Under the pieces are notes generated by a model. That model saw nothing but the letters and a program-made list of their open reading frames with translations, was not told the origin of the DNA and searched no databases. A stretch of 32,690 nt of DNA from an uncultured Bacilli bacterium (GTDB taxonomy: Bacteria; Bacillota_I; Bacilli_A; RFN20; CAG-449). This document shows positions 16,228-32,248 of this stretch, in pieces. Both the position numbers and the translations under genes were made by a program. The first letter of the stretch is position 1. Each line of letters starts with the position of its first letter. The DNA lies in NCBI GenBank assembly GCA_947627505.1, contig CANQWG010000014.1:1-32690 (forward strand). The letters are read 5' to 3'.

Positions 16228-16797
16228 TTATTGTTTGTTTGCCAAATTATATTTTATTTTTGCTAAAACTGCAGGGACAGAACTCATTATTTCTTCTGCA
16301 TCTTTTAATTTGGGTCTCAACTTAATAGGCTTAACTTTTCCAGCACTACCAACTGTTGAAATAGGATTATAATAATTGCGTTGTTGGGCATTAATCTTAA
16401 TGTAAAAGCCATTTCTTAAACTTAATAAACCAATTATCAAAGAAATTACAGCTAATGCAATACAGATCCACATTAATGGTTGCACTAATGGAAATTTAGA
16501 AAAAGCTTCGAGATTTTCAGCTTGTTTTGCCAAATTCGGAAGCTCAAAGAGAAAGTAGCCAACAAGACCATAAACTGCAGTTAAAATAAAACATAAGACA
16601 TTCACTGGTGTAACGTTAGTTTTTACAATGCCGACCTCATCTACTTTATATTCATGTCTTTTAATAATACGCTTGCTAGTAACCATACTAATAAAGCGTT
16701 TGTTAGTAATGGTAATATTACCTATGCCACCACCAAAGCTTTTAGCATAATTACGTTCGTAAATAATTTCTTCGCCTTTAGCTAGTACAAGACTCAT
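16228..16797 (-). CDS. Membrane protein with N-terminal PH-like domain
   Basis: A 189-residue protein. Residues about 1-65 look like a bacterial PH/GRAM-type fold, with GNITITNKRFISM, a phrase typical of the bPH group. Two membrane helices follow (about 68-85 and 107-126), then a basic cytosolic tail. The start has no Shine-Dalgarno; its ATG lies two bases after the stop of the preceding gene, so translation is probably coupled. It pairs with its neighbour, which has the same TNKR-IS phrase. Function unknown; a membrane-associated sensing or scaffolding role would be a guess. Confidence 0.65.
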   Translation of the reverse strand: MSLVLAKGEEIIYERNYAKSFGGGIGNITITNKRFISMVTSKRIIKRHEYKVDEVGIVKTNVTPVNVLCFILTAVYGLVGYFLFELPNLAKQAENLEAFSKFPLVQPLMWICIALAVISLIIGLLSLRNGFYIKINAQQRNYYNPISTVGSAGKVKPIKLRPKLKDAEEIMSSVPAVLAKIKYNLANKQ

Positions 16798-16799
16798 AA

Positions 16800-17252
16800 T
16801 TATTTTGCGAGTGCGTTACGTTCCATAACTAAAGTAGAGAGATTGAGAACGACGTCTTTTGCCGCATTTACGTCAACTTTAACTTTAGCTTTCTTACCAG
16901 CGAAAAATCTACCAATAAGTGGGATTCTTTGGAGAAGACTTGGTTTATTAGTAATGGCACTTAAACCAACGACTGAAACATCATCAAATACATCAGTGGC
17001 AAATGAAACTTCCAAACTACCTCTCTTAAAGAAGAAGAAATGTCTCTTAAATGCATAATTTACGCTGACATTTTGAATGTTGCAAAGGTAATAATCTTCA
17101 CGAGAACTATCCGTTTTACCTTCATAAAGTGAGATTACTCTTTTGTTTGTAACAACTAAAGTAAACTTTCCTCTAACGCGGAACCATCTTTTGTAAACAC
17201 CATAGTCCCAACTTTTGACAACTTTTTCATCTTGAAATAATTTAACGTCCAT
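16800..17252 (-). CDS. Small soluble PH-like domain protein
   Basis: A 150-residue protein with no signal peptide and no clear membrane helix. Its first 90 residues show alternating strands and the bPH-type phrase FTLVVTNKRVISLYEGK, matching the phrase in the protein encoded directly downstream; the two are probably distant paralogues working together. The C-terminal half contains a short hydrophobic/basic patch (IPLIGRFFAGKKAKVKV) that could touch the membrane, and a terminal helix. AAAGGAAAA precedes ATG. I do not recognise a more specific function. Confidence 0.6.
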   Translation of the reverse strand: MDVKLFQDEKVVKSWDYGVYKRWFRVRGKFTLVVTNKRVISLYEGKTDSSREDYYLCNIQNVSVNYAFKRHFFFFKRGSLEVSFATDVFDDVSVVGLSAITNKPSLLQRIPLIGRFFAGKKAKVKVDVNAAKDVVLNLSTLVMERNALAK

Positions 17253-17407: not shown

Positions 17408-19450
17408 TTAGTTTACTGTTGCAGGCAACCAAACTTCCGTTGTTCCAATTTGGCTAAATTCCATTGTTACTGTAGTTATACCCATTGAAGCGGAAGGTCC
17501 ACTGACTTCACTTAAATCAATCTCTACATTAAATCTAGTAAGCCTTGATTGATTTAAATATAATTTGATGTCTAATTTGACTGTTCCTTGACTATCGGCT
17601 TCATTAATTTCAAATGAATTGGTGTAAGTGTATTGATTTTCACTAACAGTTTCAAGAACATCCATTGTTGTGATTAATTCTTTTAACATGTTTTGCATTT
17701 GAGAAAATATATCGAAGGCTTGATCTCGTGCCTCAATAAACTCAGCTTCTTCTGCAAAATAACGATAATAACCAGCAGGCTGTTTTTGATAATGATAATA
17801 AACATCATTTGATTGATACCAATAATCATCATTTGTCATCGATCCATAACTGACTGTATTTTGAAATCCTTCAAAACTTTGGAATTTAGTAGTGACGCTA
17901 GATACAATTCCTCCATTTGACTTTTTCGTTTTTTGACTTAATGTTGCATTTTGTAAATTAAGATTATAGATAGCTAAAAGAATCGGTTCTGTCGGAACTA
18001 CTTCAGGGATAGTGACTTCCGTTGTTCCAAATTCACCAATATGCGCAACAACTTTTGAAAAAGTATCATCTTCGACAAAACCATTTAAGTTATGGACATT
18101 ATTACCTTCAAAATCAACTGAAACTAAGGTGTCACCATCTAATGTTATTGAATAATTTAATTCACCATATTCAGTATACGCAGTTGTTTTATAAACACCT
18201 TCATCAAGCGTAAATTGATTAAGATCTAAGTCCCTAAGAGAAAGTAAAAAATCAAGTCCTTGATTTAGATAAGAAGTTGCAGCATTAGAAAATTCTTTAT
18301 TATCAATAGAACTTTTTTCCCATTTGTTGTTTCCGTTTACACCTTTAAGATAACGATTATATGCTTCGTTTTCTTTAGCAAAGACACAACTAGCGGTGGT
18401 TTCTTCTGGGAAAGTAATGGTATCTGAAGCAAAATGTTCTTCATCTTGAAAATATCTAGTAATTTCATTTACTTTGGCATCATTTTTAAATAATTCAAGA
18501 GAATAAGTTAAATTGTTGATGTTTTCAATATTTTTAAGTGCTTTTGCAATCGGTTCATCGTTAGGATTTATGCATTGATTTGAATCAGGTAAATTTACTT
18601 CTGAGGTTCCAAAATCGTTGAATGTAAATTCAGTGACTAAAGAGCCAGCACCAACAATGGTAAAGGTTGTTTTAAAACCTATTTCAAGTAATCTTTCATT
18701 GTTATCGGTTTTGATAGTAAATGGCACCAATCGAATATCATCGGCATCAAATTGCATCTCATCTTCGATGACATAGGTATAAATATTACCATCTTTTGTA
18801 AAGCCATCGATTAATTCATAATCAAGTTTAAATTGAGTTATAAGACCATTTAAACCTTCAAATAAGCCAGGAACAAGATTTTCATAATAAAATGCATAGG
18901 TATCGGCATCTATCGTTTCAAGATAGAACGTCCCTTCTTCAAGTTCTCTTTCCCAATAATGGTTAAAAATATCCGCGTCATCAACTGCTTTATGCTCAAA
19001 ATATTCGCCGCCATTCCCATAAAAAAGATCACTTGAAGCGATAATATTTTGACTTACCCTACTTTCACCTTCATTCCCTTGAGCGTCATATTGAGTTTCT
19101 TTGGTGGTTTGGGTGAAATTAACCTCAGTAAGCGGGGTCATTAAAGCTTCCCATTGTTGTTGAGTTACACCTTTATTACCAGTTTCTGTTCCTATTGAAG
19201 TTTGAGAATCTGATTGAGATGAAGCCTCAGACGTTTCACCAGTTCCACTATTAGAGACACTTACTGATGAAATTGAAGAATCGCTCGCTGATAAAACTGA
19301 ATTTGAATCTGTATTTTCAAGCAAATTTGATGAAGATTCAAAGGCAGATCCTTTATCTTGACTATCCATTGAGTTCAAGTTTGAGCCATCGCTGCATGAT
19401 GCTAAGCAACTTATTAACATCATCGCCATTAAGAGTTTTGCTTTTTTCAT
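17408..19450 (-). CDS. Lipoprotein with three tandem copies of one beta-rich domain
   Basis: A 680-residue lipoprotein. The lipobox LASC has Cys19, and a Ser-rich linker runs to about residue 95. The rest is three repeats of about 185 residues (about 100-288, 300-483 and 490-677), each starting with a short helix and N[FL]T strand and closing with the same signature: FGTSEVNLP, FGTTEVTIP and IGTTEVWLP. The strand pattern is like LolA/LppX lipoprotein-carrier folds, but this is a visual impression. AAGGAGG precedes ATG. It lies after the terminator of the MBL gene and so is probably its own unit. Function unknown. Confidence 0.75.
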   Translation of the reverse strand: MKKAKLLMAMMLISCLASCSDGSNLNSMDSQDKGSAFESSSNLLENTDSNSVLSASDSSISSVSVSNSGTGETSEASSQSDSQTSIGTETGNKGVTQQQWEALMTPLTEVNFTQTTKETQYDAQGNEGESRVSQNIIASSDLFYGNGGEYFEHKAVDDADIFNHYWERELEEGTFYLETIDADTYAFYYENLVPGLFEGLNGLITQFKLDYELIDGFTKDGNIYTYVIEDEMQFDADDIRLVPFTIKTDNNERLLEIGFKTTFTIVGAGSLVTEFTFNDFGTSEVNLPDSNQCINPNDEPIAKALKNIENINNLTYSLELFKNDAKVNEITRYFQDEEHFASDTITFPEETTASCVFAKENEAYNRYLKGVNGNNKWEKSSIDNKEFSNAATSYLNQGLDFLLSLRDLDLNQFTLDEGVYKTTAYTEYGELNYSITLDGDTLVSVDFEGNNVHNLNGFVEDDTFSKVVAHIGEFGTTEVTIPEVVPTEPILLAIYNLNLQNATLSQKTKKSNGGIVSSVTTKFQSFEGFQNTVSYGSMTNDDYWYQSNDVYYHYQKQPAGYYRYFAEEAEFIEARDQAFDIFSQMQNMLKELITTMDVLETVSENQYTYTNSFEINEADSQGTVKLDIKLYLNQSRLTRFNVEIDLSEVSGPSASMGITTVTMEFSQIGTTEVWLPATVN

Positions 19451-19521
19451 GTTTCCTCCTTAAATATTTATTGCTCACTTAATATGAAAATAAGCTCAAT
19501 GTTAATTTTATTCCTTGAAGC

Positions 19522-19558
19522 GTTAAAAAAGCGTTTATATAGTTCGCTTTTTTTTAAC
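19522..19558. repeat. Long AT-rich hairpin upstream of the three-repeat lipoprotein
   Basis: GTTAAAAAAGCG (19522-19533) faces CGCTTTTTTTTAAC (19545-19558) around an 11-base loop containing TATATA. It could be a terminator remnant, an operator or a leader structure. Confidence 0.4.
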
Positions 19559-19648
19559 ATTAATAAAATTTTTATGATGATATACGAGAAAATGTTTAAC
19601 AAATAAAATAGTTGATAAGTTTTTTATTGTCATTCTTTATTTTTCATC

Positions 19649-19698
19649 AAAAAAAGCAGCCGTTGAATCGATTGCCTTTGATTCAAAACATGCTGCTT
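19649..19698 (-). terminator. Terminator of the MBL gene (end of the transporter-nuclease cluster)
   Basis: Two-part stem: AAGCAGC (19654-19660) with GCTGCTT (19692-19698), and TTGAATC (19663-19669) with GATTCAA (19680-19686). On the minus strand it runs into seven Ts, about 60 bases past the MBL stop. Confidence 0.75.
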
Positions 19699-19759
19699 AA
19701 TAAATTATAATTTTTAAATAATATTTCGTTAAGGTTACTTTATTTTTATCAAACTTATA

Positions 19760-21379
19760 CTACCTGTACTCTTTAGCCCAAGCCGTATCTTTGAATTCTA
19801 AATTTTGCTCACCCGTAATCGCCTTACCTCCCATATAATATGGCGAACTAACACCTAATCCTTCAACTTCTAAACTGCCACTACCTTTGGATGTTACATG
19901 AACCGTTCCCATTGTAAAGTTGCAATATACCTTAGCATTCACATCGTAAAAGCGGCCTAAAGCTCCGGCATTTGGATGCCATTGGTTATTGGCATTTGAT
20001 TGTTCATTGCCACGACTCTCTAATGCAGTAGAAACAACGACAACTTCTGGTCTAATGGTTCTTAATAAATTACTGCTATTACCCTTATAAGAAGCATGGT
20101 GAGACGCTTTCATCAAATCAACATTTTTCAATTGTCCGGAAGAAACCATATTATTTTCTCCTCCAGAATCAAGATCACCGCTGAAATAATACGAGTGATT
20201 TTTAAACGTCATAATAAAGGTTACCGAAGCTTCATTGTCATCACCATCTCCGATATCTTTACCCGGCTCAATATATTGATACGTATTGAGGATAGTAATA
20301 TAGAAATCATCCGCAATCCAAATAACACCATTATTATTTTTCAAAGCATCAGTTACCGCATAATAAGAAGTCGCTTTTTCTTTCATCATGTCTCTTACTA
20401 CTGAAGAAGTATAGTAACTAGCTCGATCATAGCCATAGTCAAGGGCATAACCGATTTGATTGATGTTGCTTAAAACGCTTGCCATTCCTCCAATATGGTC
20501 TCCATGTGCATGAGTGGCTACCACCATTTCTAACGTAGAATCTAAAGCGTGTTCTTTAACAAATTGCGAAACATAATACCCATCACTATTTTGTCCGGCA
20601 TCGATCAGCATATCAAATTCACCGGCTTGGATATAAATTGCATCTCCATATTGTTCGTGCATTTCTATAAAATAGATGTTTACTTCATCCAAAGGGGCTT
20701 TTCCATTATATAAAGGATTTTGTTTTGAGCCTAATTCTCCACTTCTCACTTCTTTTTTATAAGCAATCAAATCATAGCTTTTAGATGCAAATTCTTCATC
20801 ATCTAATCTAAGTGAAATATTTAAAGTTATATTAGTATCTTGCTGTGGAGCGACAAAAATACCTTCGCTTGATAAAATATCGGGACGTGAAGAAGAATAA
20901 ACGTATGTTAATCTTCCTGTTTTAGGAGCACGACTTATAAATTTGACACTATTGCCAATGTAATGCATCTTGGAATAAATGCCATCGATGTAAGCTAAAG
21001 AATATTCTCTTAATTCTTGATCTAGTTTTTCTTTATCTGGCTTATCGTCTTCAATAAAAGGAAAATCTTTCAGTTTTCCTTCGCCGATGTTCATTTGAAA
21101 GGTATAAGTTTTTGTAGCCTTGGTAATTGAAGGGAAGCATTTTTTCAAAATACCGCTACAATCAACATCAAGTGAAATCAAACTACCATCATCATCAAAA
21201 TAAAATTGATAAGAAACTTCGTCACCTTCCGATAAAAAAGTATTATAATCTATCAAATATCCAAGATCATAATATAGATGTTGCACCAACATTTTATTGT
21301 TAATGATACCGATAGTTCCATAATCGATTTCGCGACTTATCGCATCATTAAAAATACCTTCAAGGCCCGTAAAAACCAT
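19760..21379 (-). CDS. Extracellular metallo-beta-lactamase-fold hydrolase (ComEC-type MBL), probably 3' part of a frameshifted lipoprotein gene
   Basis: The 539 listed residues comprise a beta-rich N part, an Ig-like domain (about 125-210) and an MBL-fold domain (about 233-510). The MBL metal ligands are visible: HAHGDH (H290, H292, D294, H295), GD at 401-402 and the SHHAS motif at 426-430. The layout is closest to the MBL domain found at the end of ComEC/Rec2 DNA-uptake proteins, proposed to act on DNA, but without any ComEC channel. The first ATG has no ribosome site and no signal peptide, and its frame stays open about 25 codons further upstream, into the preceding lipoprotein fragment. 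Restoring one base near 21416-21418 gives a single 691-residue lipoprotein. Confidence 0.8.
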   Translation of the reverse strand: MVFTGLEGIFNDAISREIDYGTIGIINNKMLVQHLYYDLGYLIDYNTFLSEGDEVSYQFYFDDDGSLISLDVDCSGILKKCFPSITKATKTYTFQMNIGEGKLKDFPFIEDDKPDKEKLDQELREYSLAYIDGIYSKMHYIGNSVKFISRAPKTGRLTYVYSSSRPDILSSEGIFVAPQQDTNITLNISLRLDDEEFASKSYDLIAYKKEVRSGELGSKQNPLYNGKAPLDEVNIYFIEMHEQYGDAIYIQAGEFDMLIDAGQNSDGYYVSQFVKEHALDSTLEMVVATHAHGDHIGGMASVLSNINQIGYALDYGYDRASYYTSSVVRDMMKEKATSYYAVTDALKNNNGVIWIADDFYITILNTYQYIEPGKDIGDGDDNEASVTFIMTFKNHSYYFSGDLDSGGENNMVSSGQLKNVDLMKASHHASYKGNSSNLLRTIRPEVVVVSTALESRGNEQSNANNQWHPNAGALGRFYDVNAKVYCNFTMGTVHVTSKGSGSLEVEGLGVSSPYYMGGKAITGEQNLEFKDTAWAKEYR

Positions 21380-21399
21380 CGTGTTATCGATATCATTGA

Positions 21400-21834
21400 T
21401 TAAATCATTGTGCGCTTTGTACCTTGAAATACGGCATAGTTTTGACCATTTACATACATTTCAACATAATTGCAATTTGGCTTTGTAAAATACGCTTTAA
21501 GATTTTGTATTTCAGCATACGCTTGAAAAATAGTTCCATTTTGATAATAACCTTTTTTCTGATTGACGATTGGTGTTTCGTTTTCGCCGTTATCGTCAAC
21601 AATAAGAGTTTCATTAATAGTTAAATTTAAAGCACTATTAACATCTTTTAAAGACTCTTTCGCTGTAGCGGTAAGTTTATTGTCGACGATAGAATTAGAT
21701 GAATTGTTGCTTCCATTTGAATCGACGATAGAGTTATCGCTTGCATTTGAGTTAGAACTATTTTGATTATTTATTGTGCAACTACTAAGTAATGTACTTG
21801 TAAAAAGCAATAATAATGCGATATTTTTTTTCAT
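21400..21834 (-). CDS. N-terminal lipoprotein fragment, probably joined to the MBL gene before a frameshift
   Basis: A 144-residue frame with a clear lipoprotein signal (LSSC, Cys19), an Asn/Ser-rich linker and the start of a beta domain (ALNLTINETLIVDD, then YVEMYVNGQNYAVFQG). It stops abruptly after KRTMI. The next frame over (-1) continues with KAHNDLINDIDNTM straight into the MBL protein, which has no start signal of its own. The gap between the two frames is closed by one extra A in the CAAAG run (TTT on the plus strand at 21416-21418). No canonical slippery heptamer is there, so an inactivating mutation or a sequencing/assembly error is likelier than programmed shifting. AAGGAAG precedes ATG. 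Confidence 0.7.
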   Translation of the reverse strand: MKKNIALLLLFTSTLLSSCTINNQNSSNSNASDNSIVDSNGSNNSSNSIVDNKLTATAKESLKDVNSALNLTINETLIVDDNGENETPIVNQKKGYYQNGTIFQAYAEIQNLKAYFTKPNCNYVEMYVNGQNYAVFQGTKRTMI

Positions 21835-21860
21835 GCTATCTTCCTTTTTCTTTTTTTTAT

Positions 21861-21890
21861 AAAAGAGGTAGGTGGAATCCTACCTCTTTT
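21861..21890. terminator. Perfect hairpin inside the nuclease-MBL cluster
   Basis: AAAAGAGGTAGG (21861-21872) and CCTACCTCTTTT (21879-21890) pair perfectly around six bases, between the OB-fold lipoprotein and the next gene. On the minus strand only four Ts lie at the stem end before ATAAAA, so termination may be partial. No good promoter is seen in the 74-base gap, so the downstream gene probably depends on read-through. Confidence 0.7.
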
Positions 21891-21908
21891 TAAAACTTTT
21901 TAATCTAA

Positions 21909-23684
21909 TTAAGCTTCAAAGACGTAAATGATATTACCTCTCCAATAGTCACCGCTTTTGGAATTCATATAAAAAGCAACAGTGATTTGAGTTCCGATAT
22001 ATTGATCTAACCAAGCATTTTCAGGACATCCAATGTCTCCCGCACTACTATAGATATTAATATAACTAGTAGAGCCATCTGCAGTGCTAGCGAAACAATA
22101 CTGAGTAAAAGTAGTTACCTTCTTAACTACATATCCTTCTAATTTATAGATTTCACCTGCGCTGACACTACTTGAAGTCTCCACATCAGCAATCGTCATA
22201 TCTTTAATTAAATTAGCATCTACCGGTGCTGGAATATCTTGATTTGAATCAAGTTTAGTTAAATCAGTACCATCTGATAATTGTAAACCACCGCTATAAG
22301 TTGCAAGTTTCGCGGTAAATTTAACTTTATCACCACGTTCAACTTGAGTTGCCAACTTATATCCATAAACATAAATCGTATCTGTTTCATCGGTCAAATA
22401 GAATCCGTTAGGAGAAGATTCACCACTACTATTTTTACCACCGACAAAAGCAGAAACTACACCTTCAACATTATATAAAGTACCTATTTCGCCTTCTTTA
22501 ACTTCAGCGATTGTATTTGTTTCAGTTGGTTTAATAGGAGCCTCTTCAAGAACATCAAAGACATAAATGATGTTACCTCTCCAGTTTCCGGTACCGCTGC
22601 TGGCTCTTGAGTTCATATAATAAGCAACTGAAAGTTTTGCACCTACATATTCATCTAACCAAGCATTTTCTGGACATCCAAATCCACTTGCAGAACTATA
22701 AATGTTAATATATTTAGAACCATCTGCATTATTGGCAAAACGATAATTCGTATACGCGCCATCACTTCCGGTACCTTCATATTTAGTCAACCAACCTTCT
22801 AACTTATAAACTTCGCCAATAGTAATGTCGTCTGGAGTATCTAAAACGTCAGCGACCGTTTTTCCTTCGATTACATAATTGCTTGGATCTGGTACTTCAG
22901 CTTCTTGACGAACTACTTCTTCTAATTTAGTAACTCCACTAGCAAATATTAATTGTTTACCACCGCTATATTCACCAAGCGAAGCAGTTAATACGATTTC
23001 GTTTCCGATTTCTACAGTATTTGCAATAGAATAAGCGTACACATAAATTGTTCCGGTCTCATCGCTAAGATAAAAACCATTTGCGGAATAAGCGTCGCTA
23101 AACTCACCACCTACAAAAGCGGAAACCACACCTTTGACAGTATATGCTGTTCCGATTTCTCCTTCTTTAACTTCAGCAATTGAAGTTAAATCATATTTGT
23201 CATCATCAAAAGCTTCTTTTTTAAGAACTGTGACATGAAAAGTACGATCATTTGAAACCGTGCCTTTAGAAGCGGTCGCGGTTAAAGTAACCGTCACATC
23301 TTCTTCATCAGCTTCAGGTCTAGTGACAGTAGCAAGTTGACCATCGATTGAAATCACATCGTTGTTGCTTGATTGCCAAGCAATTCTAACACCACCTGGC
23401 GCGCTAACAGTTAATTCGAAGCTATCTGTAACCGTTTCATCTACACTTAAAAGATTCAAAGCTGCATTGACCAATTCTTCCGATTGATCAGTAACACTTG
23501 AATTTTGTTCACTTCCACTATTTGTAGAAGTGTTAGCAGAAGTTTCAGCTGAATTACTAGCAGAAGTTTCAACTGAATTACTAGGACTACTGGAAGAAGG
23601 ATTATTCTCACCATTACAAGAAGCGAGAACTCCAGTAGCTGTCATTGACATTAAGATTGAAAAAATTAATGTTTTCTTTTTCAT
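21909..23684 (-). CDS. Lipoprotein with Ig-like domain and four OB-fold-like domains
   Basis: A 591-residue lipoprotein (lipobox LASC, Cys23; Ser/Asn/Thr linker to about 65). Residues about 66-155 form a bacterial Ig-like domain (WQSSNNDVISIDGQ...VTRPEADEEDVTVTLTAT). Two long repeats follow, 167-379 and 390-591, each made of two OB-fold-like halves: IAEVKEGEIGTAYTVKGVVS with GFYLSDETGTIYVYAY, then ADV...GEVYKLEGWL with INIYSSASGFGCPENAWLDE and NWRGNIIYVF. OB folds of this secreted type often bind nucleic acid or oligosaccharide. It lies 15 bases after the SNase lipoprotein gene, and AAGGAGAA precedes ATG. A nucleic-acid-capturing surface protein is my inference; sugar binding is the alternative. 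Confidence 0.8.
   Translation of the reverse strand: MKKKTLIFSILMSMTATGVLASCNGENNPSSSSPSNSVETSASNSAETSANTSTNSGSEQNSSVTDQSEELVNAALNLLSVDETVTDSFELTVSAPGGVRIAWQSSNNDVISIDGQLATVTRPEADEEDVTVTLTATASKGTVSNDRTFHVTVLKKEAFDDDKYDLTSIAEVKEGEIGTAYTVKGVVSAFVGGEFSDAYSANGFYLSDETGTIYVYAYSIANTVEIGNEIVLTASLGEYSGGKQLIFASGVTKLEEVVRQEAEVPDPSNYVIEGKTVADVLDTPDDITIGEVYKLEGWLTKYEGTGSDGAYTNYRFANNADGSKYINIYSSASGFGCPENAWLDEYVGAKLSVAYYMNSRASSGTGNWRGNIIYVFDVLEEAPIKPTETNTIAEVKEGEIGTLYNVEGVVSAFVGGKNSSGESSPNGFYLTDETDTIYVYGYKLATQVERGDKVKFTAKLATYSGGLQLSDGTDLTKLDSNQDIPAPVDANLIKDMTIADVETSSSVSAGEIYKLEGYVVKKVTTFTQYCFASTADGSTSYINIYSSAGDIGCPENAWLDQYIGTQITVAFYMNSKSGDYWRGNIIYVFEA
21912..23186 (-). repeat. Intragenic tandem duplication encoding the OB-fold pairs
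   Basis: Copy 1 spans about 22548-23186 and copy 2 about 21912-22517. The two are still visibly alike in DNA, for instance around the CCAAGCATTTT of each ENAWLD segment and the TTACCTCTCCA of each WRGN segment. This points to a fairly recent internal duplication. Confidence 0.6.
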
Positions 23685-23699
23685 ACAATTCTCCTTTTT

Positions 23700-25271
23700 T
23701 TATTTTACAATGACGAAATCTGTACCGAATTTTCCGTCATTATCAACAGGTCTATTACCAACAATAATTTGATATGATGGTAAATTATCGGGATCTTGAA
23801 CATCTTCCATAAAGAAAGTGCTCATAATTCCCTTGACAATAAATTTTGCGCCACTATCGACAAGATCTTTTTGAATCTCCTCTTTAGTATAGCTCGGGTT
23901 TAAAGTACCGTTAATTCGTACTTCCATTTCGTTGTATTCACTATTTAAATCGGTAACAACTTGATTGGAGGTAAGTGAGAAAGATTTATCTTTGCTCAAA
24001 TTACCAGTTTTTTGTCCCGTAAGTTCCATAGTTACTAACTTACCCATATATTGATCGAGATAGGCTCTAGTTAAATTCGTATTTTCTAAAGCAATCGGTT
24101 CAGGAAGAGCAATCATTTTTGTAGGATCGGTAACCTTAACAAAGGTATCTCGCTTCCAAACAACGTCAGATAATTGCTTTTGCCCACCATAAGTAGCAAG
24201 TCGTCCTCGAATTGAAATTGTATCACCAACCGAGAACATATTATTGATAGATTTTCCTTCAATGCCCATGTAGACATACAAAGGATAACCCTCCGCATCT
24301 TGAAAATAGAAGTTATTTCCAATAAATGCTGTGATAACACCGGTTAAACTGAGAAACTTTGCTTTGGATTCCCATTCATCGAAATTATCGTAAGCTTCTT
24401 TAATGGTCGCTTCTTGAGGAGTATCGCTATAATCGTAATCAGGATCTATTTCAGCGCCTATTTTTCTAGCACCTAAACGTTGCATTCTGACACTAGCTTC
24501 AAAAAGAACTTCTGATAACGATAACGTTCCGTAATTTGATTTATATCTTTCATAAAGAAGTGGTTCTGTCGCTTGATCAGCATTATAAACAAACTGTTCG
24601 CTTTGTAAATTAGCGGTGTAAGTGGAATAGCATTCTTCAATGACATCCAATTGTAATGAACGATATTGTGAATAATCAGAAGGATCTCCATCTTTCGGGC
24701 AATACCAAATCATGCCTAACCATCTAGTTCCATTACTATCAAGACGAACTCCAGATTTATAAGTATCGTTAACTGTCGGATATAAAGTTTTATCGCTAAC
24801 GTCGATACTAGTCGCATCGACTATTATTCCTTCGGCATTGTAAAGTTTATCTTTGACATATGCTGAAGCTTTTTTACCCCACGGAGCAATTGAAGAAGTC
24901 GATTCTGGGGTATCAATTGCCAAAAAACGAACTGTTAAATAAGAATACTCATTTCCTAGCGGATTTGTATAACCATCTTTTTCTCCGTCGAGATGGAACA
25001 CCGCAGTATCTCCGTCGGTAACTGATTTAAGTTTTAATTTGGCAATACGATTAGCCATGAATTTGTTGTTACCGAGAGATAAATTCATATCTGCAAAAGA
25101 AATCCGATTGCTATAATAATGATCAATTTCAGTTGGGATATGATCTAATGTTTCTACAAACGTTGATGACTCTTGAGATTCGCTAGTTTGAGGATTATTA
25201 GCGCTATTACAAGCTGTGATAAAGCCAAGAGAAGTTGCAACGGTTACAATAAATAATCCGATTTTCTTCAT
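23700..25271 (-). CDS. Surface nuclease lipoprotein: SNase (thermonuclease) domain plus OB folds
   Basis: A 523-residue lipoprotein (lipobox ITAC, Cys21). Residues about 78-275 are a staphylococcal-nuclease-like domain with the catalytic set present: VTDGDT (D88), R115 in VRFLAIDTPE with D120, T121 and E123, WGKKAS, and R183 in the GTRWLGMIWY phrase that matches the second catalytic arginine. These align with D21, R35, D40, T41, E43 and R87 of the family, so calcium-dependent cutting of DNA or RNA is predicted. Two OB-fold-like domains follow (about 302-378 and 405-500). The ATG is two bases after the stop of the solute-binding gene, whose last codons hold its ribosome site (GGAGAA), so expression is tied to the ABC transporter. 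Confidence 0.88.
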   Translation of the reverse strand: MKKIGLFIVTVATSLGFITACNSANNPQTSESQESSTFVETLDHIPTEIDHYYSNRISFADMNLSLGNNKFMANRIAKLKLKSVTDGDTAVFHLDGEKDGYTNPLGNEYSYLTVRFLAIDTPESTSSIAPWGKKASAYVKDKLYNAEGIIVDATSIDVSDKTLYPTVNDTYKSGVRLDSNGTRWLGMIWYCPKDGDPSDYSQYRSLQLDVIEECYSTYTANLQSEQFVYNADQATEPLLYERYKSNYGTLSLSEVLFEASVRMQRLGARKIGAEIDPDYDYSDTPQEATIKEAYDNFDEWESKAKFLSLTGVITAFIGNNFYFQDAEGYPLYVYMGIEGKSINNMFSVGDTISIRGRLATYGGQKQLSDVVWKRDTFVKVTDPTKMIALPEPIALENTNLTRAYLDQYMGKLVTMELTGQKTGNLSKDKSFSLTSNQVVTDLNSEYNEMEVRINGTLNPSYTKEEIQKDLVDSGAKFIVKGIMSTFFMEDVQDPDNLPSYQIIVGNRPVDNDGKFGTDFVIVK

Positions 25272-25273
25272 AT

Positions 25274-26827
25274 TTAATTCTCCGATTCCACTGCAATTCT
25301 TTGAGTTTGCAATTCACGATAGCAAGCTTCAATTGCATCATCTATCGTATGGTCGTTACAGTAGATGGTTCTTATCATTGAATCAACTTTATCACGAACA
25401 ATTGAAGATCCTTTAAATGCCGGATCTGTATAGAAATAGTCAAGTTGCGAATATGCCGCATTGATTGCTTTAGCAGCATTACCATCGAATAAATCTTCTT
25501 CATTGGACAAGAATGTTTTGAAAACTTCGCTATCACGAGCTGTTTTACGCACCGGAAGATAACCGGTATTCATTGAGAAATTCGTAGTATTTTCGGTGTT
25601 GGTTAAATATCTAATTAATAACCAAGCCGCCAAACGAGTAATGTTATTTGAATTTTTCGAAAGAATCGCTGCATTAGTTCCTTGTTGAATAACCGCTTTA
25701 ACAGCATTATTGTCATAGCTACGTTGTGGAATAGCCGTACATTTTAATTGATATTTTTGAGAATCGTTATTATTAACACCAGCAGTAGAACCGATGGAAA
25801 TAAACGCTTCGTTCAAAAGCATCAAAGCAGATCCATAACCTTGGTTAACCTTATCTGGTATATTCCATAAACCTTGATTTGCTTTTTCTAAAAATGTTCC
25901 TTGCGCCGATCTTACGGTTGCGTTATCGAAAACAACTGTTCCGGAACCATCAGCATTTCTTCTAGTATAAACGTCTTTGCTACCATCTGACCATTGACGC
26001 GCTGTAGTAATAAAGAAGTTAGCGCCAGAATCAATGTAAACCGGATATGATTTCTTGCTTTTATCGGCTTTAGCCGTTTGACTGATATTATTGTATTTCC
26101 AAGTAATACCTTCCGGTGACTCGAATTTTTCTTTAAGAGTCTTAGCAACTTCAAAGAGTTGATCCCATGTCGGTTGTGACCATTTTCCATCCGCATCGAG
26201 ATAACCTTTTTCACTAAGAATAGGATCGACTGCCGAAGCGTTATAATACATTATCTCCGTAGATTTGTTGAAAGGAACGGCGATAATGTGCTCTTTAGCA
26301 ACATCATCATTTTCTGCTTTCATCGTCATTTTGCATTCAGCCCAGTAACTATCGACAAAATCGCTGGTATTTGCAATTCCGATTTCTTCATCTTCGGCAT
26401 TAACATACTCATCTAACGGAAGTAAAATGCCGCTTTCAATGTAATCTGCAAAATGGTCAGGGTATCCAAGTAACATCGTTGGAATAGCATTGGATTTAGT
26501 TCCCAAATTAACTTGACCTCTTAAACCATCATAGCCGCCACCGGTTGAAGTAGCCTTTATATCAATATAAATCTCCTTTTTTTCCATTTCTTTTTCGAAA
26601 CTATCAATTAAAGGATTTAGAGCTTCTTCGATGTTGTGACCGAAAGAATGCCAGAATGATACAACGATTGGTTTGTCAGGTGAGCTGTTCTTTTTTAAAT
26701 CATCTAACGATAAAATTGAAAGCTTCTCGCCGGCATTTTCAACGTTATCCGAATTACAAGATGTCATCGTAAACATAAGTGCTAACGCTGCGGTACCAGC
26801 TAAGACAGATATACCGATTTTTTTCAT
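25274..26827 (-). CDS. ABC transporter solute-binding lipoprotein (family 1, CUT1-like)
   Basis: Substrate-binding lipoprotein of 517 residues that delivers a solute to the two permeases encoded just upstream. The lipobox is MTSC with Cys24. The body begins with IVVSFWHSFGHNIEEALNPL, a typical opening of family 1 sugar-binding proteins, and has MLLGYPDHFADYIESGILLP, PFNKSTEIMYYNAS and the hinge phrase WDQLFEVAKTLKEK. Such proteins usually bind oligosaccharides or glycerol-3-phosphate esters, but the tight coupling to a nuclease lipoprotein suggests that nucleotides, nucleosides or oligonucleotides should be considered. AGGAGA precedes ATG; it lies 51 bases after the permease gene. Confidence 0.9.
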   Translation of the reverse strand: MKKIGISVLAGTAALALMFTMTSCNSDNVENAGEKLSILSLDDLKKNSSPDKPIVVSFWHSFGHNIEEALNPLIDSFEKEMEKKEIYIDIKATSTGGGYDGLRGQVNLGTKSNAIPTMLLGYPDHFADYIESGILLPLDEYVNAEDEEIGIANTSDFVDSYWAECKMTMKAENDDVAKEHIIAVPFNKSTEIMYYNASAVDPILSEKGYLDADGKWSQPTWDQLFEVAKTLKEKFESPEGITWKYNNISQTAKADKSKKSYPVYIDSGANFFITTARQWSDGSKDVYTRRNADGSGTVVFDNATVRSAQGTFLEKANQGLWNIPDKVNQGYGSALMLLNEAFISIGSTAGVNNNDSQKYQLKCTAIPQRSYDNNAVKAVIQQGTNAAILSKNSNNITRLAAWLLIRYLTNTENTTNFSMNTGYLPVRKTARDSEVFKTFLSNEEDLFDGNAAKAINAAYSQLDYFYTDPAFKGSSIVRDKVDSMIRTIYCNDHTIDDAIEACYRELQTQRIAVESEN

Positions 26828-26878
26828 ATTTTGTTTTCTCCTATCTCCACTTTATTTAATGCAAAGTGGTTAACATTT

Positions 26879-27766
26879 CTAGCCTTTAATGCCAGATCTA
26901 GCCACACCGCGCATGATGTATTTCTTAAAACATACAAATGCAATAAGAAGCGGCAAACTCACAACAGTAGTCGCGGCCATCATAATGTGGCTGGTTTCTC
27001 CTCCAGTATCACTTTGGAACAACGATAATAAGCCATCTGTCACTAATTTCATTTCGCTATTCTGAGATACAGTTCTCGGCCAAATATAAGCGTTCCAACT
27101 ACCGATCATTTCAAGAATGACCACTGTGATAATCGCCGGTCGGGCGATTGGAATCATTACTTTCCATAAATATTTAAAGTCGGAATTTCCATCGACTTTG
27201 GCCGCATAATAAAGTTCATCGGGAATCTGCATAAAGTTTTGACGTAAAAAGAAAATGTAGAATACCGAAGTTCCAAAAGGAACAATAAGCGCTTGATAAG
27301 TGTTAAGCCAATTGAGATCCGCAACCGTAGTAAAGTTTGTCATGATCATCATTTCGCCAGGCACCATCATCGTCGCTAGTAAGAGCGAAAATATAACATT
27401 TTTGCCTTTAAAATCCAATCTTGAAAAGGCAAAAGCTGCTAAAACCGTAGTAACTACCACAAGAATTGTCGTAAACACACCAACCAAGAGGGTATTTCCA
27501 ATATAACGAATTAAGATACTATTACGCCCGTTGAAAACATCCAAATAGTTATCAATGGTCGGATTTTGTGGTATGAAAGTCGCCGGAACGCGAATCACTT
27601 CATCGAGTGTCTTAAATGAAGTAGCTAACATCCAATAGAAAGGAACTAAGGTAAATAAAGCAGCAACAGATAATGCAAAATAAACTAAACAGAGTTTAAC
27701 GATTCTAATAACTTCGTAACGCTTAGCTTGTTTTTCGCTTGCAAAATATAACTCTTCTTTTTCCAT
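26879..27766 (-). CDS. ABC transporter permease, MalG/UgpE type
   Basis: Inner-membrane half of the import channel, 295 residues with about six hydrophobic helices after a charged N terminus. The short loop that docks on the ATPase (EAA motif) reads YYAAKVDGNSDFKYLWKVMI then PIARP, and FVPFYWMLATSFK-type sequence near residue 45 is typical of MalG-like permeases. AAGGAGGT precedes ATG and only 12 bases separate it from the partner permease. It works with the other permease, the solute-binding lipoprotein and the ATPase of this operon. Confidence 0.93.
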   Translation of the reverse strand: MEKEELYFASEKQAKRYEVIRIVKLCLVYFALSVAALFTLVPFYWMLATSFKTLDEVIRVPATFIPQNPTIDNYLDVFNGRNSILIRYIGNTLLVGVFTTILVVVTTVLAAFAFSRLDFKGKNVIFSLLLATMMVPGEMMIMTNFTTVADLNWLNTYQALIVPFGTSVFYIFFLRQNFMQIPDELYYAAKVDGNSDFKYLWKVMIPIARPAIITVVILEMIGSWNAYIWPRTVSQNSEMKLVTDGLLSLFQSDTGGETSHIMMAATTVVSLPLLIAFVCFKKYIMRGVARSGIKG

Positions 27767-27778
27767 AATTTTACCTCC

Positions 27779-28834
27779 TTAATAATGAACCTTTCGTTTA
27801 TTAGCCCACATTTGAAATAAGGTAATAATCATAATAAAGACAAAGAGAATCAATGCTGCCGCAGATGCAACGGATAATAATTCCGCATTTCCGCCGGAAG
27901 TTACACTATTGAAATATTTGTAAATATAACCGACGGCAGTAATAAATGTTTCATCAAGGCCATTTCCCATATCTTCACCAAATAACGCAACAATTGAGGA
28001 ATAAGATTTAAATGCCCCGATAAGCGAAGTAATCGTAATGTAAAGAATCATCGGTGAAAGAAGCGGAACCGTAATTTTTGTAAAGACCCGCCACTTTGGT
28101 GTCGCATCAACTTGAGCGGCTTGATAATATTGTTTATCGATACCTTGAAGTCCCGATAAGAAGACAAGAATCTTAAATGCCAAGCCATTCCAAATCGCAT
28201 AAACGGTAATAACAAAGATACCGGCCCAATAAGGGATCGTATAGGCTGTACCCGTCCAGTGAACGCTTGAAATACCGACAAGATTTAATAAAGAGTTTAT
28301 AAGACCATAATCCATCGGCGAGAAAATCGTCGCAAAGACAAGACCGAAAGCAATACCATTGGTAACATATGGTAAAAAGAATATGACTTGATATACACCT
28401 TGTAATCTTTTAATCGAGTTTAATAAAACCGTAATCAACAATGCGATGATAATACTTAACGGCACGCTTACAATGACCATAAGTGCCGTATTTCCCATCG
28501 CCCTCCAAAATGTTGTATCTTGCAAAACCGTAGCATACGAATCAAATCCGAATTGTCCAAAAGCATCAGTTTGATAGTTATATGACGGGAAAAACGAAAC
28601 AATAAACGTTTTTATAATTGGGTAAAAAGTAAATACCAAAAGAATCAATAGTGCTGGTGCTAAAGATACGATTGCTTTCCAACCATCTTTTTTCCATTCG
28701 AGCATTTGGTTCTTTTGTGATTTTTTATTTGACACTTTGCTGACAAAGAAATTTTTTATTTTAATAAAGAAATTTTCTTTTTCTACTTCATTATCGATTT
28801 CTGTCGGCATTTCCGTTTTATTGAATTCACTCAT
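27779..28834 (-). CDS. ABC transporter permease, MalF/UgpA type
   Basis: Partner permease of 351 residues. A polar, acidic then basic N-terminal extension (about 1-55) precedes roughly six membrane helices. The EAA loop reads YYQAAQVDATPKWRVFTKIT then VPLLSP. I place the start at the ATG at 28834, since AGAGG lies six bases before it; a TTG two codons earlier overlaps this site. It begins nine bases after the ATPase stop. The extension is longer than in most MalF-like permeases and is not explained. Confidence 0.92.
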   Translation of the reverse strand: MSEFNKTEMPTEIDNEVEKENFFIKIKNFFVSKVSNKKSQKNQMLEWKKDGWKAIVSLAPALLILLVFTFYPIIKTFIVSFFPSYNYQTDAFGQFGFDSYATVLQDTTFWRAMGNTALMVIVSVPLSIIIALLITVLLNSIKRLQGVYQVIFFLPYVTNGIAFGLVFATIFSPMDYGLINSLLNLVGISSVHWTGTAYTIPYWAGIFVITVYAIWNGLAFKILVFLSGLQGIDKQYYQAAQVDATPKWRVFTKITVPLLSPMILYITITSLIGAFKSYSSIVALFGEDMGNGLDETFITAVGYIYKYFNSVTSGGNAELLSVASAAALILFVFIMIITLFQMWANKRKVHY

Positions 28835-28843
28835 AAGCAACCT

Positions 28844-29905
28844 CTAAATAAGACGTTTTCCTTCGCTATCAAAAATAAAGAAACGAGTAAAATTAATTCT
28901 AATGTCAGTATCTGGTAAAACTTCCAAGGTGCTTGGAACAATCGCTTTGAAGGTTTGTTCGCCACCCTTAAATTTAAAAATAATCGATTTATCTCTTCCA
29001 ATATATTCTACCATTTCCACATGAATTTGATATTTGCCTTTTTCATCAACTTGAACAAATTCCGGGCGAATACCAATAGACAACTCATCGCCATCTTTGG
29101 CATCGATGTCGGCTTTTTCTTTAAATGTTTCATCAAAGAAGCAAATTTTATCTTTTTCCATATGAGCTGGAATAATATTGATTGGTGGCGTTCCCAAAAA
29201 CTTTGCAACAAACATATCAATTGGTTCGTTGTAAACATCTTGCGGTTTTCCGATTTGGTGAACAACGCCAAAATTCATAACGACAATTTCATCAGAAATC
29301 GACATCGCCTCTTCTTGGTCATGCGTAACGAAAATAGTCGTAACGCCGGTTTCTTTCTGAATGCGTTTGATTTCTTCACGAGTTTGTAATCTAAGTCTCG
29401 CATCTAAGTTCGATAATGGTTCGTCAAGAAGTAAAACTTCCGGTTCTTTAACAAGCGCTCTAGCGATTGCCACACGTTGTTGTTGACCACCGGAAAGTTG
29501 GCTCGGTTTACGATCCATTAAATCACCGATGCCGACAAGATTAGCATATTCTTCAGCTTTTTCTGCCGCCTCTTGCTTTGGCATTTTTTTATTTTCAAGT
29601 GGGAACATGATGTTTTGCCTAACCGTAAGGTGTGGGTATAGAGCATAGTTTTGAAACACGAGTCCAATACCTCTTTTTTCAGGAGGAAATTTGCTGACTT
29701 CATTTTCACCAAAATATATTTCTCCTTCAGTTGGGCGATGAAGTCCTGCAATCATATAGAGCGTTGTCGATTTTCCACAACCAGAAGGGCCTAATAAACC
29801 GACTAATTTTCCTGTCGGAATAGTGATGTTGATGTGATCGACTGCACATACATCCCCTTCTTTTTTACTGAACACTTTAGTCAGATTGATTAATTTTACT
29901 TCCAC
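28844..29905 (-). CDS. ABC transporter ATPase, MalK/UgpC/MsmK type
   Basis: Cytoplasmic ATPase that powers the import channel, 353 residues. Walker A GPSGCGKST (39-47), Q-loop Q85 in LVFQNYALYPHLT, signature LSGGQQQRVA (137-146), Walker B with D161/E162 in LLLDEPLSNLDAR and H195 in FVTHDQEEA are intact, followed by the C-terminal TOBE regulatory domain from about 235. Initiation is at GTG six bases after AGGAGG. It opens the cluster, directly behind a strong promoter. MsmK-type ATPases can serve several importers, but having its own permeases and binding protein behind it suggests a dedicated one. Confidence 0.95.
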   Translation of the reverse strand: MEVKLINLTKVFSKKEGDVCAVDHINITIPTGKLVGLLGPSGCGKSTTLYMIAGLHRPTEGEIYFGENEVSKFPPEKRGIGLVFQNYALYPHLTVRQNIMFPLENKKMPKQEAAEKAEEYANLVGIGDLMDRKPSQLSGGQQQRVAIARALVKEPEVLLLDEPLSNLDARLRLQTREEIKRIQKETGVTTIFVTHDQEEAMSISDEIVVMNFGVVHQIGKPQDVYNEPIDMFVAKFLGTPPINIIPAHMEKDKICFFDETFKEKADIDAKDGDELSIGIRPEFVQVDEKGKYQIHVEMVEYIGRDKSIIFKFKGGEQTFKAIVPSTLEVLPDTDIRINFTRFFIFDSEGKRLI

Positions 29906-29933
29906 GAGAACCTCCTATTAATCGTTCGTATCC

Positions 29934-29962
29934 ATTTTAGCATAAAGCGTTTTTCTTTTCAA
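29934..29962 (-). promoter_or_regulatory. Strong promoter of the ABC transporter-nuclease operon
   Basis: On the minus strand TTGAAA (29962-29957), 17 bases, then TAAAAT (29939-29934) preceded by TGC, an extended -10. Transcription would begin near 29927, some 20 bases before the GTG. The -35 overlaps the stop of the preceding gene. Confidence 0.65.
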
Positions 29963-30309
29963 TAAGAGGTTATTGAGCGTAGATTTAAAAACCGCCAATT
30001 ATCGAGTTTTTTATTAATTTCTTTACAAAGTTCATCGCCTAAAGTCAACAGATAACTATTTCTTCCAAAGTAATGTTCAAAATAAAAAAATTCCCCTTTT
30101 TGATAGAAACGATACATCAATGGTTTTTGATAATTTTTAAAGACTTGCTTCAATCTAACATCAAAATCTTTCATGAAACTTTTATCGCGATTTTTTATTT
30201 TCTCTTCAATTTCTTTTTTTTGCATTAAAAAATAATCGATAAAATTCTCTTCTCGGCTCAAAAATTCTTTATCTATATATCCTTTAGTATAAACTGCCTT
30301 TAAAAACAT
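29959..30309 (-). CDS. Hypothetical 116-residue protein
   Basis: I do not recognise this protein. It is small, rich in Lys, Phe and Tyr, and has no signal peptide or membrane helix; a charged helical stretch (QKKEIEEKIKNRDKSF) is in the middle, then RFYQKGEFFYFEHYFGRNSY, suggesting a compact mixed fold. The ATG at 30309 is preferred because GGGGGT lies just before it, overlapping the end of the 44-residue gene; an upstream ATG at 30348 lies within that small gene. It is last in the RDD operon and just ahead of the ABC promoter. Confidence 0.6.
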   Translation of the reverse strand: MFLKAVYTKGYIDKEFLSREENFIDYFLMQKKEIEEKIKNRDKSFMKDFDVRLKQVFKNYQKPLMYRFYQKGEFFYFEHYFGRNSYLLTLGDELCKEINKKLDNWRFLNLRSITSY

Positions 30310-30310
30310 A

Positions 30311-30445
30311 CTACCCCCAAAAAACTCGAAATAACATAAAAAGTACAATAGTAATTACCGCTGAAATTATAGTGATCAATATTTTTAACCACATAGGTAT
30401 CGGCACACCATCCAATCGCTGTAAGTCATCTGTTTTTTTCTTCAT
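30311..30445 (-). CDS. 44-residue single-helix membrane protein
   Basis: A short frame translating to a basic/polar N terminus (MKKKTDDLQRLDGVPIPMW) and one strong membrane helix (about 20-39, LKILITIISAVITIVLFMLF), then RVFWG. Its ATG overlaps the last 20 bases of the RDD gene and AAGGAA sits eight bases upstream; its TAG lies inside the GGGGGTAGTATG that begins the next gene. This tight interlocking, without gaps, supports a real translated gene. Function unknown; small helpers of membrane complexes look like this. Confidence 0.6.
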   Translation of the reverse strand: MKKKTDDLQRLDGVPIPMWLKILITIISAVITIVLFMLFRVFWG

Positions 30446-31226
30446 AACTAAATTCCTTTTCTTTTACAATAGTTAAAGCAAAATAATCGTGAATCATTTT
30501 TCCTTCTTTAGTACAAAGCGCTAAAAGCGAAGAAATGATAAATGTTGCACCATAAAAATATAATGATGGTAATAATTCGATAGCAAAGAAACCCAAAAAA
30601 CGCATAAACAATTGTAAGATAGTCAATTTTTGACTAGGTTCAGATTTAACCTCAAGTCTCCAAATTTTCTTACCTAAAGATTGCCCATTTTTAAGGCATA
30701 ATGGTATAACAAAATATTCAATTAGACTAGATATCAAAAGCGCCGCATAGGCACCTATCGTCATTACATTTTTCATTTTTGATTGAAGATCTTTATAATC
30801 TTCTCGCGATGCTAAAGAAAAACGAGCTTTATATAATTCACTTTCATAAAAATCGCTCAACGCTTCACTAGATGCCGTAGATTTTTGATGATACTTACCA
30901 TTTTCATCAAGTTCGAATAATCCCGACCTCGCTTTAGCGTCTTCATAATTTAAAGCCTTTGCATCAGGATCGTAATACTGATTCAATGTATAAAACTCAG
31001 TCAATTTTTCATCGATATTTTCACTGATTAAAACCATTTGTCCGTCTTTTTCAATATAAAGTCCACTATCTAAAAATACTTGATTCAATTGTTCTTGCCA
31101 TCGTGGATAATCAGTAAAATTTTGAATGATAGTCAAATTAAATATTTGCAAAAGCACGAAAAAAATAGCGATTATTATACCTAAGTCTATAAGCCCCGCA
31201 AAAATACGTTTTAGTTTTATCGGCAT
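30426..31226 (-). CDS. RDD-family membrane protein (266 residues)
   Basis: Membrane protein of the RDD family, whose members are of mostly unknown or transport-related function. The first helix carries the family's spaced R and D (KLKRIFAGLIDLGIIIAIF). A long extracellular loop (about 40-145) of mixed polar residues separates it from a second helix at about 150-170, then the cytosolic phrase NGQSLGKKIWRLEV, characteristic of RDD domains, and a last pair of helices near 210-250. Its ATG overlaps the stop of the preceding RDD gene by one base (TAATG), so the two are coupled and probably form a complex. Confidence 0.82.
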   Translation of the reverse strand: MPIKLKRIFAGLIDLGIIIAIFFVLLQIFNLTIIQNFTDYPRWQEQLNQVFLDSGLYIEKDGQMVLISENIDEKLTEFYTLNQYYDPDAKALNYEDAKARSGLFELDENGKYHQKSTASSEALSDFYESELYKARFSLASREDYKDLQSKMKNVMTIGAYAALLISSLIEYFVIPLCLKNGQSLGKKIWRLEVKSEPSQKLTILQLFMRFLGFFAIELLPSLYFYGATFIISSLLALCTKEGKMIHDYFALTIVKEKEFSYEEKNR

Positions 31227-32248
31227 TATTGAATATTGGTCCCTTCATTGTCATCTATCGTCGAAACCACATCACGTTCTTGAGTTTCAAGGTCAGTTTC
31301 TTGCTCATCAACGCTTTGTGCATCTTTAGAGAAAACAAAATACTGCATATCAACCACCATAGTTGAAGTCACAAAATCTTCTAAAGTTCGGCCTTTATTA
31401 TTTAAAAGCATTATGATAATAAATAGCACCAAAGGTAATCCCATCACATAAAACGATGGTACTAAACCCACAAGTACAAAAAACAAACTTCTAAGAAATA
31501 CTCGTGGCCTTGAAGCAATTTTCATTGTTTTAATATCAACAATCGTCAAAGCCATCATCCTCTTTCCTAAAGTCATTCTCCATTTGCTAATTAAAGGAAT
31601 AACAAAGTAAAAAATGATAAGCGAAATCGTCATTGCAATTGCGTTCGTAACAAAGCCATAGACACCTACTTTAGTTATTTGTCGTGCTACTTCTCCGTCT
31701 TTATATGAACCGATACTTTGTTCTTCCATCCAAGAGGAGGCGATTGTAGTCAAAAACGACTTAACTTCATCTTCTTTAGCCGAAGGATTGATCTCTCCGT
31801 TTGTAAATAGTGAATTATTGTCGTTTTTTTGTTTTAAATATTGATCAGATTCTCCGATTTCATTATAAAAATGCGTTAAATACTGATCTAATTGTTCACT
31901 AGTAATTTGTAATTTTTCATCAGTTAAATAACAATAATTATATTCTGAATTTTCAGTTTTTACTTTATTAAGAGCTTCGGTTCGTTCTGCCTCAGATGAT
32001 TCATAATCAGCATATATTGTAATTATGTAATCACCTTCTGTTTCGACTCTTTGTCCAATAACCGCAACACCTAAATCAACTAAACTTTCAAAAGCTTTGT
32101 ATGTATCTTCAATGTATGGTGTCGCACTATAAGTAATCGGCATAACAAGCGTACTAAGCAATAGATAGCTAACAATATAGGTAAGACCCAAATCTATAAA
32201 TGCAGCTCCGATTCTTTTAAAAGGTGATGCTTTAACAAAATCATCCAT
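31226..32248 (-). CDS. RDD-family membrane protein (340 residues)
   Basis: First gene of the RDD operon, 340 residues. Helix 1 has the family residues in FKRIGAAFIDLGLTYIVSYL; a polar external loop of about 150 residues follows, then helices near 205-225 and 260-290 around the RDD phrase WRMTLGKRMMALTIVDIK. The last 35 residues are an acidic tail rich in Asp, Glu, Gln and Thr. It is a paralogue of the next gene, with the same unusual long loop after helix 1. AGAGGTTAG precedes ATG, and a near-consensus promoter lies 26 bases upstream. Confidence 0.82.
   Translation of the reverse strand: MDDFVKASPFKRIGAAFIDLGLTYIVSYLLLSTLVMPITYSATPYIEDTYKAFESLVDLGVAVIGQRVETEGDYIITIYADYESSEAERTEALNKVKTENSEYNYCYLTDEKLQITSEQLDQYLTHFYNEIGESDQYLKQKNDNNSLFTNGEINPSAKEDEVKSFLTTIASSWMEEQSIGSYKDGEVARQITKVGVYGFVTNAIAMTISLIIFYFVIPLISKWRMTLGKRMMALTIVDIKTMKIASRPRVFLRSLFFVLVGLVPSFYVMGLPLVLFIIIMLLNNKGRTLEDFVTSTMVVDMQYFVFSKDAQSVDEQETDLETQERDVVSTIDDNEGTNIQ

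Follow-up and report, generated by a model that had tools for sequence, protein, structure and literature searches.

A lipoprotein–metallo-hydrolase gene with a broken reading frame at the end of a diverged operon in an uncultured Bacilli bacterium

The window analysed here, a stretch of 32,690 nucleotides from an uncultured Bacilli bacterium, carries an operon of transporter and lipoprotein genes that ends in two reading frames overlapping one another (Table 1). The upstream frame encodes a protein that begins MKKNIALLLLFTSTLLSSC..., has a lipobox at Cys19, and stops at a TAA codon (21402-21400). The downstream frame, shifted by -1 with respect to the first, encodes a metallo-beta-lactamase (MBL) protein; it reads open back to 21460, is preceded by a TGA codon (21463-21461), and shares 61 bases with the lipoprotein frame. 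An initial annotation, made from these letters, had recognized this overlap and correctly located a TTT at 21416-21418, but set the upper end of the overlap at about 21458, two bases short. The 539-residue MBL ORF retains all of its metal motifs and, as that annotation noted, lacks both a signal peptide and a ribosome-binding site. Shine-Dalgarno pairing is absent at its ATG (21379; +0.3 kcal/mol), 11 of the 12 other starts checked in the window lying between -5.8 and -11.3 kcal/mol, and the lipobox is on the 144-residue piece and not on the MBL piece. Another start without a Shine-Dalgarno sequence, at 16797, belongs to ORF 16228-16797, a conserved gene; this ORF abuts 16800-17252, and translational coupling is possible there.

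Table 1. Positions of the split gene, its operon partners and the surrounding block in the window.
Feature	Coordinates	Strand	Remarks
5' part of split gene	21400..21834	-	144-aa ORF, lipoprotein signal, Cys19; profile positions 1-100
3' part of split gene	19760..21379	-	539-aa ORF, ComEC/CbpE-like metallo-beta-lactamase domain
Overlap of the two frames	21400..21460	-	frame change must fall inside
A_AAG tetranucleotide, upstream frame	21415..21418	-	minimal -1 shift site, low-efficiency type
Lipoprotein, aBig_2 domain and OB-fold repeats	21909..23684	-	resembles N-terminal region of ExeM/NucH nucleases
SNase/thermonuclease-like lipoprotein	23700..25271	-	weak, just under Pfam cut-off
ABC solute-binding lipoprotein	25274..26827	-	operon partner
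Two UgpE/UgpA-type permeases and UgpC/MalK-type ATPase	26879..29905	-	operon partners
Block apparently replaced relative to congeners (xenologous allele)	19545..31247		breakpoints approximate: left 19545-19571, right about 31247

Homologues were sought in 58 relatives and then in 279 genomes of the order, and four at full length were found, three in the same genus (G001, G002 and G003) and one in another (G006). The G006 protein is the nearest intact homologue, with 56% identity to the window copy over the MBL part, and the other three are about 41% identical. In all four, both parts lie colinearly in an uninterrupted lipoprotein-MBL ORF of 656-670 aa, with an N-terminal lipobox (...LLISCN, ...LVSACS) carried by the polypeptide that also bears the MBL domain; the split is present in one of the five family members, the window copy. 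A profile built from the four intact homologues matches the MBL frame at positions 111-664, colinear with the N-terminal piece and adjoining it at the overlap. The match of the N-terminal piece is weak and diverged (at most 28 bits, with E about 1e-6 in a two-sequence search), and about 115 residues beyond its signal correspond by homology to the intact relatives' N-terminus; in the alignment of 683 columns, the MBL ORF starts at column 125. Four relatives with one ORF matching both pieces in the same order thus bear out the initial proposal of a single gene cut by a frameshift, and homologues encoded as two separate genes, the counter-evidence it had named, were looked for and not found among the four. 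A contig search of GTDB r220 with the alignment returned no loci beyond these same relatives, and one with the window protein alone as query gave no match. Ten more distant MBL lipoproteins and relatives were also inspected, and these are mostly single lipoproteins with a lipobox of their own. By this comparison the intact family is small and restricted, a set of ComEC/CbpE-like MBL lipoproteins of the cell surface whose genes belong to a nuclease-transporter operon.

The MBL part passes the Pfam cut-off for the MBL-fold hydrolase superfamily (PF00753; 35.7 bits against 22.7), and the window protein contains each of the motifs LIDAG, HAHGDH, N, SGD and SHH and has the HxHxDH, D and H metal motifs of MBL-fold hydrolases. 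It falls outside ComEC/Rec2 (TIGR00361), scoring 36.4 bits against a threshold of 190.05, matching at positions 451-633 only, and containing no membrane channel domain. The best solved relatives, both by sequence and by the fold of an intact homologue, are the ComEC MBL domain and CbpE/Pce; structure prediction on the intact G006 homologue was moderate for the MBL part and low for the N-terminal 230 residues (mean pLDDT 53). The intact protein is probably a surface enzyme of ComEC/CbpE-like type, an MBL phosphodiesterase or nuclease. Mn-dependent nuclease activity is proven for the MBL domain of ComEC (PMC8579336), and fold and neighbourhood together suggest a nuclease role here, but motif II (HxHxDH) is of the canonical CbpE type and not the aspartate variant of ComEC, which counts against that role.

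The split gene is at the end of the operon, with its partners upstream and in the same direction. The most likely targets of the intact enzyme are phosphodiester substrates (nucleic acid), which it would degrade at the cell surface and so supply to the ABC transporter encoded in the same operon. We infer that the operon is a surface scavenging system for nucleic acid or another phosphodiester, and that the split deprives it of its MBL enzyme. Throughout the order, the genes for ComEC-like MBL lipoproteins (L123-L129 and L009) lie directly 3' of an ORF for what looks by eye like an OB-fold lipoprotein, and the arrangement suggests that MBL and OB-fold lipoproteins may form a conserved two-gene surface module.

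All seven operon genes lie inside a block of about 11.7 kb with two sharp edges, the left an intergenic terminator-like stretch and the right the stop codon of ORF 31226-32248. Outside it, the flanking genes share 86-99% protein identity with G001 and G003 (most above 90%, and PFOR 100%), and DNA identity to these genomes is 91-96% on the left as far as about 19,545-19,571 and on the right from 31,248 onward. Within it, the operon genes are only 37-80% identical to those of the congeners, which among themselves share 90-99% identity. Each of the seven is closer to its counterpart in G006 (44-87%), whereas PFOR in G006 is only 83% identical, and no second, congener-like copy of the operon is present in the window's genome. 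These identities are read most simply as a replacement of the operon along the line leading to this genome, in which recombination within the conserved flanks brought in a diverged allele; a difference in the downstream neighbour excludes G006 as the direct donor. A chimeric assembly is a possible source of the block, but would need two joins at orthologous positions. The operon appears to be part of an allele that different lineages of uncultured gut Bacilli have exchanged, and its exchange suggests that surface scavenging systems turn over through homologous replacement. At the right edge of the block, 30426-31226 and 31226-32248 encode two tandem RDD-family membrane proteins. G001 has two RDD proteins in the corresponding position, and the first of the window pair shares only about 30% identity with either one; the number and type of RDD copies therefore vary at this edge.

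These comparisons support one gene split by a frameshift as the likely origin of the two ORFs, and we consider it highly probable that a small indel specific to this genome, inside the overlap, has abolished or nearly abolished a surface enzyme. The intact product would be a surface lipoprotein of roughly 660-690 residues, with a signal peptide and lipid-anchored cysteine followed in turn by an N-terminal domain of unknown fold, a probable Ig-like segment, and a ComEC/CbpE-like metallo-hydrolase domain. Translation from the real start would now yield only the 144-residue lipoprotein stub, and the MBL domain, left with neither ribosome site nor export signal, would be lost from the surface or almost so. 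The lesion is likely to be recent, because it stands alone and has left every catalytic motif and the other 539 codons intact; with only 56% identity to the nearest intact homologue, its position is resolved no further than the 61 bases of the overlap. As a frame disruption the feature is ordinary, the interest lying in its operon, and recognizing it removes a possible false annotation, that of a small 144-aa lipoprotein beside a cytoplasmic MBL enzyme.

A singleton, homology-validated frameshift, by the criteria of PMC3711429, points to an indel mutation or a sequencing error. We give about even chances to a genuine mutation, which is slightly likelier than an assembly error. That the frame was broken in sequencing or assembly of a metagenome-assembled genome, and that the gene is intact in the organism, is nonetheless a serious contender at somewhat under even chances. 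The assembly of the window's genome consists of 60 contigs, the relatives are MAGs from rabbit ('Lapin') whose contigs bear assembler names of the NODE type, a single lesion with all else intact is the pattern expected of an error, and homology-validated singleton frameshifts, of which this is one, were expected to be mostly sequencing errors in a survey of 1106 prokaryotic genomes (PMC3711429). Against an error, the candidate site is a three-base A run and not a long homopolymer, and the absence of other frameshifts in some 40,000 codons compared indicates that the assembly is accurate in frame. This check compared the orthologous parts of about 420 kb of the window's genome with similar samples of G001 and G003 and took genes with at least 75% identity, a range outside which the split gene itself falls. 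Frameshifts in the window's genome numbered 0 in 129 genes (44,158 aa) and 0 in 114 genes (40,232 aa), and a simulated control in which one base was dropped per gene was flagged in 114 of 124 cases. Frame errors are rare in this assembly, but real frameshifts are rare as well, and the sample cannot settle one case. The sole other frame break in that comparison is in a gene at about 3375-4221 of L075 (G001:C1): intact in G003, it loses its frame close to the 5' end in G001.

Recoding at the overlap fares much less well. One very unlikely scenario is that, once the operon had been acquired from another lineage, loss of its terminal surface MBL enzyme became advantageous or at least tolerable, with low-level -1 rescue at A_AAG giving a leaky rather than a dead gene. 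We give still less credence to programmed or leaky -1 ribosomal frameshifting at this site as a source of some full-length lipoprotein. The shift is in the correct direction (-1), the A_AAG at 21418 is in frame within the overlap, and Z_ZZN tetranucleotides of this type are minimal -1 sites at which low-level shifting compensates nearby frameshift mutations (PMC5009743). The initial annotation saw no classic slippery site, and this holds in that there is no X_XXY_YYZ heptamer in the overlap, with the in-frame A_AAG, expected about 0.08 times per 20 codons, as a caveat. There is no stimulatory structure downstream, where the RNA folds worse than its shuffles (z = +1.12), and no Rfam match in 19400-22000. 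None of the four relatives is split, and they need no shift. A Shine-Dalgarno-like AAGG is only 3 nt 5' of A_AAG; the corresponding spacing to the shift site in dnaX is 10 nt. A programmed frameshifting gene, being unconserved and having neither heptamer nor structure, is rejected, and the A_AAG allows at most a leaky rescue, which is possible but unsupported. Least credible of all are two functional genes, a small lipoprotein and a separately initiated MBL enzyme (cytoplasmic or coupled): termination-reinitiation is conceivable at an ATG 20 nt past the upstream stop, but this ATG has no ribosome-binding pairing, the start of the MBL ORF falls partway through a region with homology to the secreted form, and nearly all relatives have the MBL domain on a lipoprotein and none has a two-gene arrangement; this reading is rejected.

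As a single gene broken by a small indel, the window gene resembles the singleton frameshifted genes or hypothetical pseudogenes of the GeneTack classification (PMC3711429), being validated by homology, confined to one genome, and likewise without a conserved shift site; nothing essential differs, and the window gene lies inside an apparently horizontally replaced operon. Its family is matched best, by sequence and fold, by ComEC/Rec2 (TIGR00361), and shares with the C-terminal MBL domain of that protein (PDB 9ic4) the asparagine at motif III, the GD and HH motifs, and the extracellular location, but the window protein has no membrane channel or OB domain and differs at motif II. A full ComEC-like protein is encoded elsewhere in the window's genome (G000:C20), which makes DNA uptake conceivable. 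The second-best solved match, the phosphorylcholine esterase CbpE/Pce (PDB 2bib, 1wra), is likewise a surface MBL hydrolase, whereas the window family is lipid-anchored, lacks choline-binding repeats, and matches in sequence over part of the domain. The operon recalls the mycoplasma SNase-solute-binding protein-ABC operons (MAG_5040/MAG_5030, mhp379), which are proposed to feed on nucleic acids (PMC3585158) and likewise combine nuclease-like and solute-binding lipoproteins with an ATPase and two permeases; that of the window has a weak SNase match, known here from sequence, and adds the OB-fold and MBL lipoproteins.
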